Origin: Promethearchaeum sp.
Lineage (GTDB): Archaea > Asgardarchaeota > Lokiarchaeia > Sigyniarchaeales > Promethearchaeaceae
Assembly (NCBI GenBank): GCA_030612265.1
Contig: JAUWOE010000007.1
Location: 1-39,418, forward strand
Length of the DNA stretch: 39,418 nt
Direction of reading: 5' to 3'
The notes beneath the pieces are model-generated. The model did not search any database. It was not told the origin of the DNA and worked only from the letters and a program-made list of their open reading frames with translations. The translations under genes and the position numbers were made by a program. Positions 15,453 through 31,369 of this stretch are shown here, one piece after another; the stretch's first letter is position 1; each line of letters opens with the position of its first letter.

Positions 15453-17580
<2,128 letters not shown>

Positions 17581-17600
<20 letters not shown>

Positions 17601-19311
17601 CCAACTCCAACAATTCTTCAGTTCTTATTATTTTATTAGGTAAATTAGGAAAATTTTTAATGAGACGGTTAATCTGCGGGGTAAATTTGGAAGTTATTGG
17701 ATGTGAAAGCACATTTTCTGAAAAATCATCTAAAATAATTTTACCCTCAGAGAAGAAAAGAATTCTTTCTGGATATTTAGTTAAACTCTCGATATCATGG
17801 GTAACTAAAATTACTATATTACCTTTTTTCCGATATTCGTCCAAGTAATTAAAAAAATGGTCTTTTTGTAAAGCATCCATGCCGTGAGTAGGTTCATCCA
17901 TAATTAAAATCTTAGGTTGAATTACAAGCATTGTTGCTAATGCAGTTCTTTGCTGTTCTCCATAGGAGAGATAACGCGGATAAATTGATAATAAAGACTT
18001 AAGATCTAATCTTTCAGAATATTCTTCTAGAAGTTTTTTTGCATTTTCTGAATGAATTTTAAAATTTTTTAAAACTACTTCTAGTTCCTCTTTAACCGTG
18101 TCTTGATAAAATTGAATACTCGGATTTTGGAATATATACCCAACATCGCGTGAAATTTGTGCTACGGATAAATTCTTCATATTTTTCCCATTAATTTTTA
18201 TCGTGCCATTTCTAGGTCGTAGTAACCCATTAAAAAGTTTTAAAAATGTAGTTTTTCCTACTCCATTATCGCCTATAATTGCAATAAATTCACCGGGATA
18301 AGCTTCAAAATTTATATTTGATAAGATTGTATTGTTCTTCTCGTATTCAAAGCGAACATCCTTAAATTCTACTAAAGGAGTAGAATCGAGAAATTTTTGC
18401 ATATATTGCCCTTTATTTTGTTGAAAATATTTTGTATTTCCTTCACTGAACTTCAAATCTTCAAAAAACTCTTTTAGAATTAGTGAAAATTCTTGAATAT
18501 TATTTGGTATATGGTTTGGAGAAATCTGATATTTGGATAGTATTTTTTTATGTTTAATGATTTCCAAAAAAAACTTGATTATGGGAGGAATGAAAAATTG
18601 ATTTGAATTATTTTCTTTGAGGAAAATTTGGTTCGGTTTGCCATCTTGAATAATTTGACCGTCATTCATAATAATTAAACGATCAACATATTCAATAACA
18701 CGATCTATCCTATGTTCAATTAATATTACCGTTATTCCCAATTTTTTATTCAGATTTTGAACAACATGTAAGATTTCTTCTGCAGATTTTGGATCAAGTT
18801 CAGAAGTAGGCTCATCTAAAATTAATATCTCAGGTTGCATTGCCAATATCGCCCCAATTGCCACTTTTTGCTTTTCACCACCTGAGAGAGAGCTTATAGC
18901 TCTTTTTCGCATTGATTCCAACCCTAATAGTTCAATAGTATCATTTAACCTATTTTCTATTTCATTTCTGCTCAAATTTATGTTTTCTAAGCCAAAAACC
19001 AGTTCTGATTCAACATTATTCATGAATAGTTGATTTTCAGGATTTTGAAAAACCATTCCTATCTTCTGAGCAAGAATTCGAGGTTTTTTTTCAAAAACAT
19101 TCATATCTAAAACTTTTACCGAACCTGATATTCGCCCACCATAAAAATTAGGTATCAAACCATTTATTGCGCGTATTAATGTTGATTTTCCACTTCCTGA
19201 AAGTCCAGTTATAAGAACAAATTCACCTTTAGAAATTTTTAAGTTAATATCTTTTAGAGCCTCAGAATTTTTCCCAAAATAATGAAAATTCAAATTACAA
19301 ATTTCAATCAT
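17581..19311 (-). CDS. ECF transporter ATPase, two fused ABC ATPase domains
   Basis: Two Walker A (GLSGSGKST, GDNGVGKTT), two signature motifs (LSGGEKQKVA, LSYGEQQRTA) and two Walker B (ILILDEPTSELD, ILIMDEPTHGMD). Confidence 0.96.
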
Positions 19312-20237
19312 CTTTCTATCTTATCCTCCAGATATAATAGTCCAATTACCAAGATATTTGAAATGAATGAAATTAATAATGCATAGTATTCTAAATTGGC
19401 AAGAAATATTCCAGATAAGGTTGGATAAATAATAAATTCTCCAAATCCCTGAAATGTTATATAAATTTGAAAAATTAGTAAAGAAATAACGAAAATCATG
19501 ATAAAATAATCACTTATTGTTATTCTTAGTTTTCGGTAAAATTCTCTTTTCCCTTTAATATCGAATGCTCTGGCTTCTAATGCCTCAGCATTTTGAATAG
19601 ATCTTTCCAATGAATTGGTTAATAGGGGTAAAATAAGTTTGACGTTATTATTAAATTTTCTAAAGAAATTCCCCTTTTCCAACTCTAAACCCTTGCATTG
19701 TTGGATTTCTCTAATTCTTTCTAAATCTTTCAATATTAATGGAAAGAAATTGAGGGAGAGAGTAATGATAAAAACAATTGAGTGTGGAAACCTTAATTTA
19801 ACTAAAACTTGAATGAGTTCATCCGTGTTAATTATTAGATTGAACGTGCCGAAAATTAAAAATATTAAAGTTAACCGCAATATAATGAGTAAACTTGAAA
19901 CAATAGTTTCAAAAGTTATTTTAAATCCTCCTAATATTGGAAAATCATTCAAAATTTGGAAAATAATAGTCGTCCCTTCAGGATAGAGGATAATATTTAT
20001 AAAAAAAGTAAATAGCGAAATTATCAGCATAAACCGAAAATATATCAAAATTTCTTCCCAACAATTACTAAATAACACTAAAATGAGTATATTAAAAAAA
20101 ATAACTCCAAGATAAAACGGATGGTCAAATATGAAACTTTGAATGAATAAATTTAATAGAATAAATATTTTTACAACCCCATTAGAACGATATATAAAAT
20201 TTTCTTTAGGTCTGTATGTAAGCTGCAAAAAATTCAT
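19308..20237 (-). CDS. ECF transporter T component
   Basis: 'ERIREIQQCKGLELEKGNFFRKFNNNVKLILPLLTNSLERSIQNAEALEARAFDIKGKR' matches the EcfT coupling-helix pattern; 4-bp overlap with the ATPase gene. Confidence 0.92.
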   Translation of the reverse strand: MNFLQLTYRPKENFIYRSNGVVKIFILLNLFIQSFIFDHPFYLGVIFFNILILVLFSNCWEEILIYFRFMLIISLFTFFINIILYPEGTTIIFQILNDFPILGGFKITFETIVSSLLIILRLTLIFLIFGTFNLIINTDELIQVLVKLRFPHSIVFIITLSLNFFPLILKDLERIREIQQCKGLELEKGNFFRKFNNNVKLILPLLTNSLERSIQNAEALEARAFDIKGKREFYRKLRITISDYFIMIFVISLLIFQIYITFQGFGEFIIYPTLSGIFLANLEYYALLISFISNILVIGLLYLEDKIER

Positions 20238-21887: not shown

Positions 21888-23110
21888 TTAATTGTTTTCT
21901 TTGGATACAATTCCAAATAGGAGAATTATAGGAATAGTTCCTAAGACATATATCCCTGCCGTAACTAGAAAATTAAGTCGAAAATTATTAGTTGGACCTA
22001 TAAGATAGCCCCCAAAAACAGCAGACATATTCCAAAACGAACCCCATGCCAAAGCTTCTAATGAGTTCCATTTTCCTCTTTTTTTTTAGGAACGAAATCC
22101 ATTAAAATTGAACGACTTAAAGGCTGTGAAGCATTCATTAAAGACCCATGTATTATGAAAACAATAATTAAAACCCATATTGGGGGATATGTAGCAATTA
22201 AAAATAGACAAATAGTGGCAATACTTTGTACAATAAAGATCATCTGGGGGCGCCCCTTTGATTTAGAAAAGTGTTGGGCTATTAATCCGGAGAATCCTGT
22301 AGCAATAGAAGTGAATCCAGAAATTGCTTGAACCATAATAGGTGACATTAAATAGATTTCCATGAAGAAAATATGAAAAATTTAACAGTCATTCCTGCGC
22401 CCAATCCAATTATTATGTTACACCCAACAAGAATAAACGGAATATATCTAACTGGAATGAATTTTAATTTAGTTTTTAATTTTGTTTTTAATTCTGTTTT
22501 TAATTCTGTTTTTGAATTAGAATCTAAATCTTTATTTAACGAAGAATTGGAGGATTCATTAACTAGTGTCAATTCGCCATTTAAATTATTATCAATGGTA
22601 ATTGAATCGCTACCCGTTCCAAGTGATTTTTGATCGCTAAAGAAAAACATCATTATCAAAGAAATAAATGAAAAAATAAGCCCAAACCCCATTACAAGTT
22701 TTAAAACATTTAATTCCCATACGTCACCCAAAAATAAGAATAGAAAAATATTTAGAAAAAGACCCAAAGCCATTCCAATTTGACTTTTTAACTGTCGCCA
22801 TGAACAAATATAGGATTTTGTTCCCGATTGAGCTGAATCAGCAAAAGTTGCTTCTAATGAAGGCCGAGTAATTCCTTAGTATAAACCCCAAATTATCAAA
22901 GCGATGAAAATCATAGTAATTGAATTTGCAAAAAAGAGAAATCCAATACCAATAAGACCAAAAATTGCTGCTATTCGTAACATCCAATCTCTTCGTATTT
23001 TATCAGCAAAAAAACCAGAAGGGAAAACTACAATTGTCATAATAATTCCAGTTGCACCAGAAGCCAATCCTAACATTTCAATGGATGAATTTGATAGCAA
23101 AATGCTTATG
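21888..23110 (-). pseudogene. MFS transporter pseudogene (in-frame stop, two frameshifts, missing N-terminus)
   Basis: Reading through: '...SSIEMLGLASGATGIIMTIVVFPSGFFADKIRRDWM...WGLY*GITRPSLEATFADSAQSGTKSY...GLGAGMTVKFF/IFFMEIYLMSPIMVQAISGF...MDFVPKKK/KRGKWNSLEALAWGSFWNMSAVFGGYLIGPTNNFRLNFLVTAGIYVLGTIPIILLFGIVSKENN*'. Confidence 0.85.
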
Positions 23111-23161
23111 TGCTTCACTTTCATCGAACTTTTTTTGATCTTCACTCATTTTATTCAACAT
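23078..23161 (-). pseudogene. N-terminal stub of an unrelated ORF fused to the MFS pseudogene
   Basis: 'MLNKMSEDQKKFDESEAHKHFAIKFIH*' in a different frame, overlapping the start of the MFS remnant. Confidence 0.45.
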
Positions 23162-23223
23162 TTTTTGCAGTTTTTCTCTAAAATATATTAAAACTAATCA
23201 AAATTATTCTCTAATTTAAAAGA

Positions 23224-23354
23224 AAGGCAATCTAGGGGACAGCGCACCAAACTGATGCGTAAAAAGAGGACCTCCATAAAGAAGGTTAAATCAAGCTATC
23301 TCTGATGAGATAGCATCCAAAAAGACAAAATAATTAATCCCCGTAAATTGCCTT
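23224..23354. ncRNA. Candidate structured non-coding RNA (strand unresolved)
   Basis: Closing stems AAGGCAAT (23224-31)/ATTGCCTT (23347-54) and GGGGA (23235-39)/TCCCC (23338-42). Internal hairpins GCTATCTC-TGAT-GAGATAGC (23295-314), CGCA/TGCG (23243-46/23256-59) and ACCT/AGGT (23270-73/23283-86). No ORF. Confidence 0.55.
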
Positions 23355-23461
23355 ATTCTCATTTAATCCGTTTTTCTATAAAAATTTATGCTCTATTTAA
23401 AATAACTTAAAATTAAATGGGTTTATAAATATATTTAATATATTCTTTCTGTCGATGAAAA

Positions 23462-26410: not shown

Positions 26411-27481
26411 ATGGGAATCATTCCTTCAATATTATATAGCACAAGGCAATTTTTGCGAAATTCAAAACGATCATTGCAATAATGGCAGGAATTGTCATTT
26501 CGATTACATTAGTAAGTGGTATTTTTATTGCTGGAGAAAATCTAGCCGAATTTAGTATCCAGAAAGGTTTAAACGATGTTAAATTTGATTATATCTTAAC
26601 ATTTTCCGAATCAAACAATTCCAATCGTGAAGATGTATTGAATGCTTTTAATACGGTAAAGAATGAATATGATGACCTCGATATTTTGAAAAGTATTTAT
26701 ACAACATCTACAAGGGCTTTTCTTAATATAACTGGCAAAACTGCTCAAACAAACTGGATTCCTGAAACTATCCGTTCTCAAAGGGGATTCGCAATTACGA
26801 CAAACGAATCTTCTCCTAATCCAGATAATTTTCTACAACAAGTAGCAATTAGTGCAATCGATGATATACTAATCAATGATAGTGTATATGATGACATAAT
26901 ATCATTTGATAAAAATTCGAAAAAAACGTATAGGCATAGTTTTTCAATTCATGAATTTAATTCCCTCTTTAACAGCCGAAGAAAATGTCAGTCTTCCTTT
27001 ATTACTATCTGGATATTCTATGAAAGAACAAAAGGAAATTTCACAGAAAATGCTTGAGAGAACAAAAGTCTCTGACCGAAGTAAACATAAACCAGGAGAA
27101 TTAAGTGGAGGAGAACAACAAAGAATTGCAATATCAGCAGCTATTGTGAACAATCCAGATATAATTATTGCTGATGAACCTACTGGTGAACTAGATTCAG
27201 TTACACGCGAGGAAATCCTTGATCTTTTTAGGGATTTAATAGAAAAATATCCTAATAAATGTTTGATCATAGTGAGTCATGATAGAGCAGTAGAACGAAT
27301 CGCAGATCGAATTCTGACAATAAAGGATGGTGTAATTACTAGAGAACGCCTTCCTGGAGAAAATTTAAACGAAGTAGAAGGATCTGATGTTTTAAAACAG
27401 AAATTATATAAATATCAAGATGAAATCGCGGAATTGAAGGAAAAATTAAACTCTATTAATAAATTAATATCGAAAACTTGA
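26411..27481 (+). pseudogene. Deletion-fused ABC transporter remnant (FtsX/MacB-like permease N-terminus joined to LolD/MacB-like ATPase C-terminal part)
   Basis: 'MGIIPSILYSTRQFLRNSKRS' / frameshift / 'IMAGIVISITLVSGIFIAGENLAEFS...' then a frame change at ~26905 into 'IRKKRIGIVFQFMNLIPSLTAEENV...ELSGGEQQRIAISAAIVNNPDIIIADEPTGELD...IIVSHDRAVERIADR'; no Walker A. Confidence 0.85.
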
Positions 27482-29591: not shown

Positions 29592-30779
29592 CTACGTGAT
29601 CTTTACGATTTGTGGCGATAACACCTTCGCCTCTATTCCCTTACCTTGAAAGGCTGTAGGAACTACTTTTCTCATGATATTCATGGCACCATTGACATCT
29701 GCATTGATTTTGATCCCTTTGCTAGACTGGAATAATCCCCGCTTAATCCTCTTACCCATATAGGCATCATGTTTTCCGATTGGTTCCTTGTCCAATGCAG
29801 AACATTTGCTAGTGTAAGATTCATTAGTCAGAATGACATCGATTCCAACAAATTTCGCTTTATATTGAATCATCCTTATTAATTGATAATGAGGAATAGA
29901 AACAAAGTTTTGGTTATTCCTTTTACCAATGTTACTCTTTTGTTTCCATTTCTCATTATACCCGATGATTATTGTGCCAATATTATTATGGATACAATAA
30001 TCAATTAGTTTCCGAGAGACTTTATGGAAAAAATCCTTGATTTTATTATTCCGTTTCCTTGTTTGGATTGACATCCGCTCTGTTTCTGGATGAGAAGAAT
30101 CAACATAGGAACGATTCAATCCCCGCACCTTATTATACCATTGATTGATAGACTTAACAACTTTCCCTTTAACAATGAGAGGATGCAACCCTATATTGTT
30201 TGCAGTAGTTATGAGGTTGTTAATTCCTAAATCAATGGAAATTATGCGATTTTTATTTAATCCTAAGTCTTCCTCCTCACGATTATAAATGATTTCGTAG
30301 ATATAATAACGTCCTTTGGGAATAATGCGGATCTGCTGATACTTTTCAATCCTTATTTTTAATGGTGGTAAACTCGTTTTCTTTGGAAAATAGATCATTC
30401 CATTTTTAATTCGAGAATTTTGATTGGTGAAGATTACAATAGATTCCCCATTTTTTTTCTTATAATTCGGCATTTTAGGTTTAGCGAAAAATTTGCTCGG
30501 ATGATTTTGATATTCTTTTAATGCTCTCCAATAGGCTTTCCAATTTTGAATGACCAATCGTAAGATTTGCTGGGATGTTTGGGCTGGAAAAGCTTTGTAG
30601 GCTTCGTGGTCTTTAAGAATTACTTGCAAATCATAATAACTGAGAAATTCTTCGAGATTAAAAAAAAACTGACGGTAATGAAAATTCGCCAAGTTATACA
30701 AATTCTTTGCTAAATGACAGAGACGGGACAATTCTGGCGTTCTTTTATGTTGGATTTGTTCTGTTAATTGAATTTTCAC
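29592..30779 (-). CDS. tnpB: TnpB, RNA-guided nuclease family
   Basis: RuvC motifs 'IISIDLGINNLITTA', 'IIIGYNEKWKQ', 'INADVNGAMNIMRKV'; 'SYTSKCSALDKEPIG...GKRIKRGLFQ'. GTG start overlaps the tnpA stop (taGTG). Confidence 0.93.
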   Translation of the reverse strand: MKIQLTEQIQHKRTPELSRLCHLAKNLYNLANFHYRQFFFNLEEFLSYYDLQVILKDHEAYKAFPAQTSQQILRLVIQNWKAYWRALKEYQNHPSKFFAKPKMPNYKKKNGESIVIFTNQNSRIKNGMIYFPKKTSLPPLKIRIEKYQQIRIIPKGRYYIYEIIYNREEEDLGLNKNRIISIDLGINNLITTANNIGLHPLIVKGKVVKSINQWYNKVRGLNRSYVDSSHPETERMSIQTRKRNNKIKDFFHKVSRKLIDYCIHNNIGTIIIGYNEKWKQKSNIGKRNNQNFVSIPHYQLIRMIQYKAKFVGIDVILTNESYTSKCSALDKEPIGKHDAYMGKRIKRGLFQSSKGIKINADVNGAMNIMRKVVPTAFQGKGIEAKVLSPQIVKIT

Positions 30780-31369
30780 TACACCTCTTTGATAAGTTCT
30801 TGAATGAATTTTCTTTTTCGTTTAGAATACATTTTCATAACAAAGCAATGTATTAAAGAAATTATTTCTTCCATAACTTCTTGAGAGTCTAATTTAGGAT
30901 TCCCGACCTCGGAAATTACCATAATGTCAGTTCCAAATTGTTTAAACAAATAAGAAAAGAGTTCAAAAGACTTTCTACTTAATCGATCCTTATATGTGAT
31001 AATAACCTTTTTAACCAGTTTTTGAAGAATATCCTCTAATATCTTGAAGAAATTCTTCCTTTTCTCAAATGAGATCCAGGAAACATCATCGGAAAACATT
31101 CCATTCAATTGAATGCCATTTGAGAAACACCATTGTTTGTTCAATTGAATTTGATTTTCCAAATCTGGTTTCTGTTTTTTTGTTGAGAATCGTGCATACG
31201 CATATTTTTTCCTCGGAACGCCTTCGTTGAAAAATATATGACCCGATTCCTCATCCCAGTTCCAATATCCATTGGGAAGTTTGTACTCTTTTATTTTCTC
31301 ATCTCTCTGATATTTATAAAGAGTAACTTTGCCAATTTGTAATAATCGACATACTTCCCCAGATAACAT
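30779..31369 (-). CDS. tnpA: IS607 TnpA, serine recombinase with N-terminal MerR-like HTH
   Basis: 'LSGEVCRLLQIGKVTLYKYQRDEKI', 'KYAYARFSTKKQKPDLENQ' (catalytic Ser), 'ITYKDRLSRKSFELF'. Confidence 0.93.
   Translation of the reverse strand: MLSGEVCRLLQIGKVTLYKYQRDEKIKEYKLPNGYWNWDEESGHIFFNEGVPRKKYAYARFSTKKQKPDLENQIQLNKQWCFSNGIQLNGMFSDDVSWISFEKRKNFFKILEDILQKLVKKVIITYKDRLSRKSFELFSYLFKQFGTDIMVISEVGNPKLDSQEVMEEIISLIHCFVMKMYSKRKRKFIQELIKEV

Follow-up and report, generated by a model that had tools for sequence, protein, structure and literature searches.

Asgard archaea are the closest known prokaryotic relatives of eukaryotes, and the literature that we searched describes few of their non-coding RNAs beyond the universal ones. 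Among characterized archaeal systems, the nearest in kind to the element reported here are the small RNAs associated with Sm-like proteins (SmAP/LSm) in Sulfolobus acidocaldarius, where SmAPs bind U-rich RNA and the small RNA genes carry a TATA motif 24–30 bp before the transcription start (PMC12817955). Our element is like them in being intergenic and apparently independently transcribed, with a TATA box at an sRNA-like distance and a U-rich stretch. However, its covarying helices make it far more structured, its U-rich core is almost invariant, its binding of SmAP is putative and, as far as we searched, it is not homologous to any described sRNA. With the eukaryotic Sm-class snRNAs it shares an interhelical U-rich site with GG after it (CUUUUUGGA), but this is a resemblance only: here the site lies inside a closed multi-branch junction, and no snRNA family in Rfam matched. 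Riboswitch aptamers also combine a closing stem, hairpins and a conserved junction, whereas this element has no conserved downstream gene and has its own promoter and a candidate terminator. Finally, 5S rRNA is of similar length, has paired 5′ and 3′ ends and is multi-copy, but differs in branching and sequence.

The window that we analysed is a 39,418-nt stretch of a Promethearchaeum sp. contig (JAUWOE010000007.1), in which positions 23223..23355 of the minus strand almost certainly constitute the gene for a structured non-coding RNA of about 133 nt (Table 1). The support for the existence of this RNA family is comparative, drawn from sequence data on its fold, strand, conserved promoter element, multi-copy occurrence and restriction to two related Asgard genera. 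A first-pass annotation had proposed a multi-branched structured RNA of no recognized class and free of ORFs in this interval. That proposal is now backed by further copies, covariation, a conserved promoter and the lack of an Rfam match; no ORF of at least 60 aa was found over 23224–23354, and all of the complementary arms that it named are present at the positions it gave. Its expectation that the folding would be better than chance was borne out as well. The stretch 23224–23354 folds at −52.2 kcal/mol (z −7.2) on the minus strand and at −40.5 kcal/mol (z −6.5) on the plus strand, with none of 200 dinucleotide shuffles equally stable on either, and eight further copies, checked singly, each gave a fold z between −5.7 and −8.1. 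The closing stem P1 joins the 5′ and 3′ ends, and hairpins P2, P3 and P4 are arranged around a central junction; thus the nested hairpins inside the closing arms stand as annotated, while their number is corrected to three clear ones plus a possible mini-hairpin (GUCU-UUUU-GGAU). Three points go beyond that annotation: the RNA lies on the minus strand, it belongs to a multi-copy, lineage-restricted family, and its conservation peaks in a U-rich junction segment rather than in the perfect 8-bp stem.

Table 1. The RNA gene with its parts, and other features of the window (coordinates of the window, RNA parts written 5′ to 3′ as minus-strand RNA).
Feature	Position	Strand	Basis or remark
RNA gene, 133-nt model match	23223..23355	-	covariance models R1/R2, 143.5–143.8 bits; homologues
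TATA box TTTTTATA	23377..23384	-	32 nt upstream of the first G of P1 GGC
P1 5′ strand AAGGCAAUUUACGGGGA	23338..23354	-	fold; covariation (curated helix table)
Conserved U-rich junction segment UUAUUUUGUCUUUUUGGAU	23315..23333	-	alignment A2; GUCU/GGAU mini-hairpin with UUUU loop possible
Hairpin P2 GCUAUCUC-AUCA-GAGAUAGC	23295..23314	-	both sides changed in 6 of 8 pairs
Junction UUGAUUU	23288..23294	-	invariant in A2; UGAUU also in divergent copy L023
Hairpin P3 ACCUUC-UUUAU-GGAGGU	23270..23286	-	highly variable yet paired; covariation (curated helix table)
Junction CCUCUUUUUA	23260..23269	-	CUUUUA core conserved
Hairpin P4 CGCAUCA-GUU-UGGUGCG	23243..23259	-	fold; third pair C-G, G-C or A-U among copies
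P1 3′ strand UCCCCUAGAUUGCCUU	23224..23239	-	pairs with 23338–23354 (fold, covariation)
U-rich tract UCUUUU, candidate terminator	23218..23223	-	directly after P1; U- or pyrimidine-rich tracts there in most copies
Broken MFS transporter gene	22058..23145	-	three ORF fragments, MFS_1 matches in two
Three adjacent ORFs, ECF-type transporter-like: substrate-binding membrane component, double ATPase, transmembrane T component	16821..20237	-	by eye
Overlapping ORFs in different frames, ABC permease piece and MacB/LolD-like ATPase; possibly a frameshifted pair	26482..27481	+	by eye
IS607-type-like element: serine-recombinase-like ORF (30779–31369), then TnpB-like ORF (29592–30779)	29592..31369	-	by eye from translations

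The strand was read from the base pairs themselves. In a hand-curated helix table, the helices taken as minus-strand RNA contain 35 G.U against 3 A.C pairs, a ratio that the plus strand reverses, and several conserved pairs are C.A mismatches on the plus strand and G.U on the minus. We therefore assign the RNA to the minus strand; a plus-strand RNA is ruled out by this bias together with the position of the promoter.

Covariation was measured in 13 aligned copies (alignment A2). Under the RNAalifold structure, 97.2% of cells are paired and 13 pairs show double-sided changes. The covariation score was reached in none of 500 shuffled controls and the number of double-change pairs in one of 500, while sliding the partners by 1–3 columns dropped pairing to 42–51%. 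Covariation above shuffled and slid controls, the general criterion for a structured non-coding RNA, was thus observed, and the main ground on which the first-pass annotation would have been refuted, a lack of covariation in homologous copies, fell away. RNAalifold placed a different helix where the single-sequence folds give P3, and the covariation of P3 comes from the hand-curated table; the RNAalifold-based test is the more independent measure, because the table, assembled by eye, is biased towards the structure. P1 has been rebuilt with different sequence in the subgroups: GGCAAUUUA-GGGGA in most copies, GGCU-GCGU-GCGG in those at the phosphofructokinase (PFK) locus, and GGCU-CCGCACGGA and GGCU-CCCUAUGGA in genomes G007 and G005, respectively (bulges omitted), each with a matching 3′ strand.

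The source genome (G000, a 3.77-Mb MAG) holds five intact full-length copies found by blast, namely the window copy (C274) and those on C167, C25, C253 and C220. Further copies occur in four related Asgard MAGs, two of the same genus (G001, G002) and two of the same family (G005, HM1_B6_4; and G007, Ca. Harpocratesius repetitus FW102, Promethearchaeaceae), with about five copies per genome in the best-sampled genus. Of 228 Asgard genomes searched with a covariance model, five carry the RNA, in a filtered search with limited candidates per genome that can miss distant members. A second covariance model, which included the very divergent G007 copy and was run with laxer filters on 38 relatives, added nothing convincing, and we read its weak extra matches as chance. 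When 84,980 species genomes were scanned with a pattern, the same taxa were returned, along with non-Asgard matches that are chance; viral contigs gave motif-only matches and no copy, and no copy was found in phage and plasmid collections. Among the genomes searched, the family as delimited by these sequence models is restricted to two related Asgard genera, that of the window and that of Ca. Harpocratesius repetitus. Orthologous RNAs are 86–98% identical, against 65–72% for the downstream flanks at three loci; at the PFK locus the flanks are themselves 79–86% identical between orthologues, so that the contrast there is smaller. Truncated copies lie on G002:C197, G001:C341 and G002:C167. In the first of these (L025, G002:C197:5774-5907) the P1 5′ strand is replaced by an unrelated self-complementary GGTCGCACTTGCGACC, and this copy is probably a pseudogene.

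None of the known RNA classes that we looked for accounts for the element. Comparison with Rfam 15 (4227 families), a check that the first-pass annotation had also called for, gave no gathering hit in the window and, at E up to 1, no match in the loci with copies; two chance-level matches fell outside the element. ARAGORN detected no tRNA or tmRNA. RNase P, SRP, 16S and 5S RNA were each located elsewhere in G000 and were set aside as candidates; true 5S genes also lie elsewhere in G002 and G007. In Ca. Harpocratesius repetitus, three tandem 5S rRNA copies spaced about 375 nt apart were seen (G007:C1:1399892-1400758; L148/L151). Harpocratesius encodes the RNA-guided Argonaute HrAgo1 (PMC11217426), and we considered an Argonaute-linked RNA; this was rejected, as a Piwi domain was found in G007 only and not in the other four RNA-bearing genomes (MAGs 74–89% complete). 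Our literature search found no description of such an RNA. With neither an Rfam match nor a description in that literature, it counts as a new family within the broad class of structured archaeal non-coding RNAs, and its U-rich, near-invariant junction is unusual.

All eight intact copies at four loci (C274, C167, C25 and C253, in three, two, two and one genomes, respectively) carry TTTTTATA at −32/−33 from the first G of P1 GGC. Two PFK-locus copies have AAAATATAT at about −34, a distance measured by eye, and no clear box was seen in the G005 copy or in the divergent G007 copy L023. A TATA box at a fixed distance and conserved between copies, as is required of an independently transcribed archaeal sRNA, is therefore present. 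From this distance and the spacing in Sulfolobus, the predicted transcription start would fall at or around the start of P1.

Conservation within the RNA is unevenly distributed. Its most conserved part is the 19-nt P1–P2 junction UUAUUUUGUCUUUUUGGAU, with 17 of 19 positions invariant and the other two at least 90% conserved over the 13 rows of A2. The segment is identical in L023, whose helices and P4 loop differ strongly, and copy C253 departs from it at the first bases. UGAUU in the P2–P3 junction and CUUUUA in the P3–P4 junction are also kept, while the helices change sequence freely. Within the segment, GUCU and GGAU can pair around UUUU on thermodynamic grounds; because this pair never varies, comparison speaks neither for nor against the mini-hairpin. 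The same 19-mer recurs just past the stop codon of a HAD-like hydrolase gene (L013:2673-2691, minus strand, L030 and L031, on G000:C187, G001:C245 and G002:C52), exactly in G000 and G001 and with one mismatch in G002, and is followed by a second, degenerate copy after a spacing sequence that differs per species. A binding factor common to both would fit this recurrence, and so would a plain U-rich terminator. An isolated genome-wide regulatory motif was rejected, since in most of the eight genomes near matches to the 19-mer (at most three mismatches) are about as frequent as matches to the reversed pattern used as control; some genomes show a modest excess.

How might such an RNA work? It quite likely acts in trans, and it is probably a scaffold for an RNA-binding protein; a protein site is proposed because it would account for a sequence that stays fixed while the helices change freely. 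The gene's own minus-strand TATA promoter would drive transcription of a non-coding RNA of about 133 nt, in which helices P1–P4 would form an interchangeable scaffold that presents UUAUUUUGUCUUUUUGGAU, with UGAUU and CUUUUA, to the partner. That partner would most likely be a U-rich-binding protein, for example an archaeal Sm-like protein (SmAP/LSm), the outcome being a small RNP or a protein-sequestering RNA, and the several copies per genome might serve dosage or separate expression control. A U-rich-binding protein is a model that we hold tentatively, leaning slightly against it, and the one pointer to SmAP, which is perhaps the partner, is the U-richness of UUAUUUUGUCUUUUUGGAU. SmAPs are widespread in archaea but the RNA was found in five MAGs, and the partner could therefore be lineage-specific. 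GUCU may also pair with GGAU, which would shorten the unpaired part of the segment and count against this model. Taken as a whole, a stand-alone minus-strand RNA that acts in trans and whose U-rich junction docks a U-binding protein, perhaps SmAP/LSm, strikes us as a tentative explanation that falls only a little short of an even call. A stronger version, in which the RNA is the subunit of an Sm-core-type RNP, with an Sm-like ring closed on CUUUUUGGA in the junction to make a structured snRNA-like particle outside eukaryotes, is improbable.

The same conserved segment could instead be the seed of a trans-acting antisense sRNA that pairs with target RNAs, the stems merely stabilizing the molecule. 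Multi-copy sRNAs that share a seed are common in bacteria, and conservation of so long a junction segment across 14 copies is in keeping with this reading. However, complementarity of the segment to 16S rRNA is no better than that of shuffled motifs (164 of 200 as good), complementarity to RNase P and SRP RNA is weak (9 of 100 shuffles as good for each), and there is none to 5S; 23S rRNA was not located, and the rRNA results cover 16S and 5S. The near-match counts given above point the same way, and the conservation of UGAUU and CUUUUA in the remaining junction strands would not be needed by a pure seed. We thus regard an antisense role as unlikely, though deserving of some weight.

The scattered and partly truncated copies, and P1 arms that resemble terminal inverted repeats, could suggest a small MITE- or SINE-like element, mobile or selfish, in place of a functional RNA. 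On the other hand, those arms carry compensatory substitutions between copies, which are unexpected for transposase sites, and the internal hairpins covary too. Orthologous copies are kept between species, with their TATA box, and are better conserved than their flanks; neither sequence-conserved terminal repeats nor, in flanks read by eye, target-site duplications were seen. This origin is accordingly very doubtful. A catalytic RNA, such as a self-cleaving ribozyme, might use the conserved junction as its active site, and ribozyme cores typically show conserved junction strands between stems that vary. However, no Rfam family matched even at relaxed thresholds, ribozymes included, and to our knowledge so U-rich a core is unlike those of known ribozymes; we consider this reading highly improbable.

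Gene neighbourhoods bear on the last alternative. As the first-pass annotation described, the window copy is flanked on one side by the broken MFS gene and on the other by a gene whose P-loop match is weak; the latter, upstream and divergent, is common to the orthologous loci. At the PFK–THUMP locus the RNA sits between a THUMP gene and the phosphofructokinase gene, on the opposite strand to both (G000:C220, G001, G002, G007), and no copy was seen beside the THUMP gene in G004, G005 or G006. A cis-acting riboswitch or leader of the downstream minus-strand gene (in the window, the MFS transporter) is largely refuted and barely credible. In its favour, the P1-closed junction with its conserved core resembles an aptamer, the window has the MFS gene downstream in the same orientation, and an ORF begins about 20 nt downstream of the C25 copy. 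Against it, that MFS gene is itself broken and was not seen in G001 or G002, the genes that follow the C274 and C25 copies are not the same from one species to another (including the C25/C183 pair), and at the PFK locus of four genomes the RNA and the gene after it lie on opposite strands; no downstream gene is conserved.

As a compact, multi-copy family that is supported by covariation, has a defined promoter and contains one highly conserved segment, the RNA is directly testable. If its partner is an Sm-like protein, the family would bear on the origin of the eukaryotic Sm RNPs; if it is not, the RNA would be a lineage-specific regulatory or RNP RNA of the Promethearchaeaceae.
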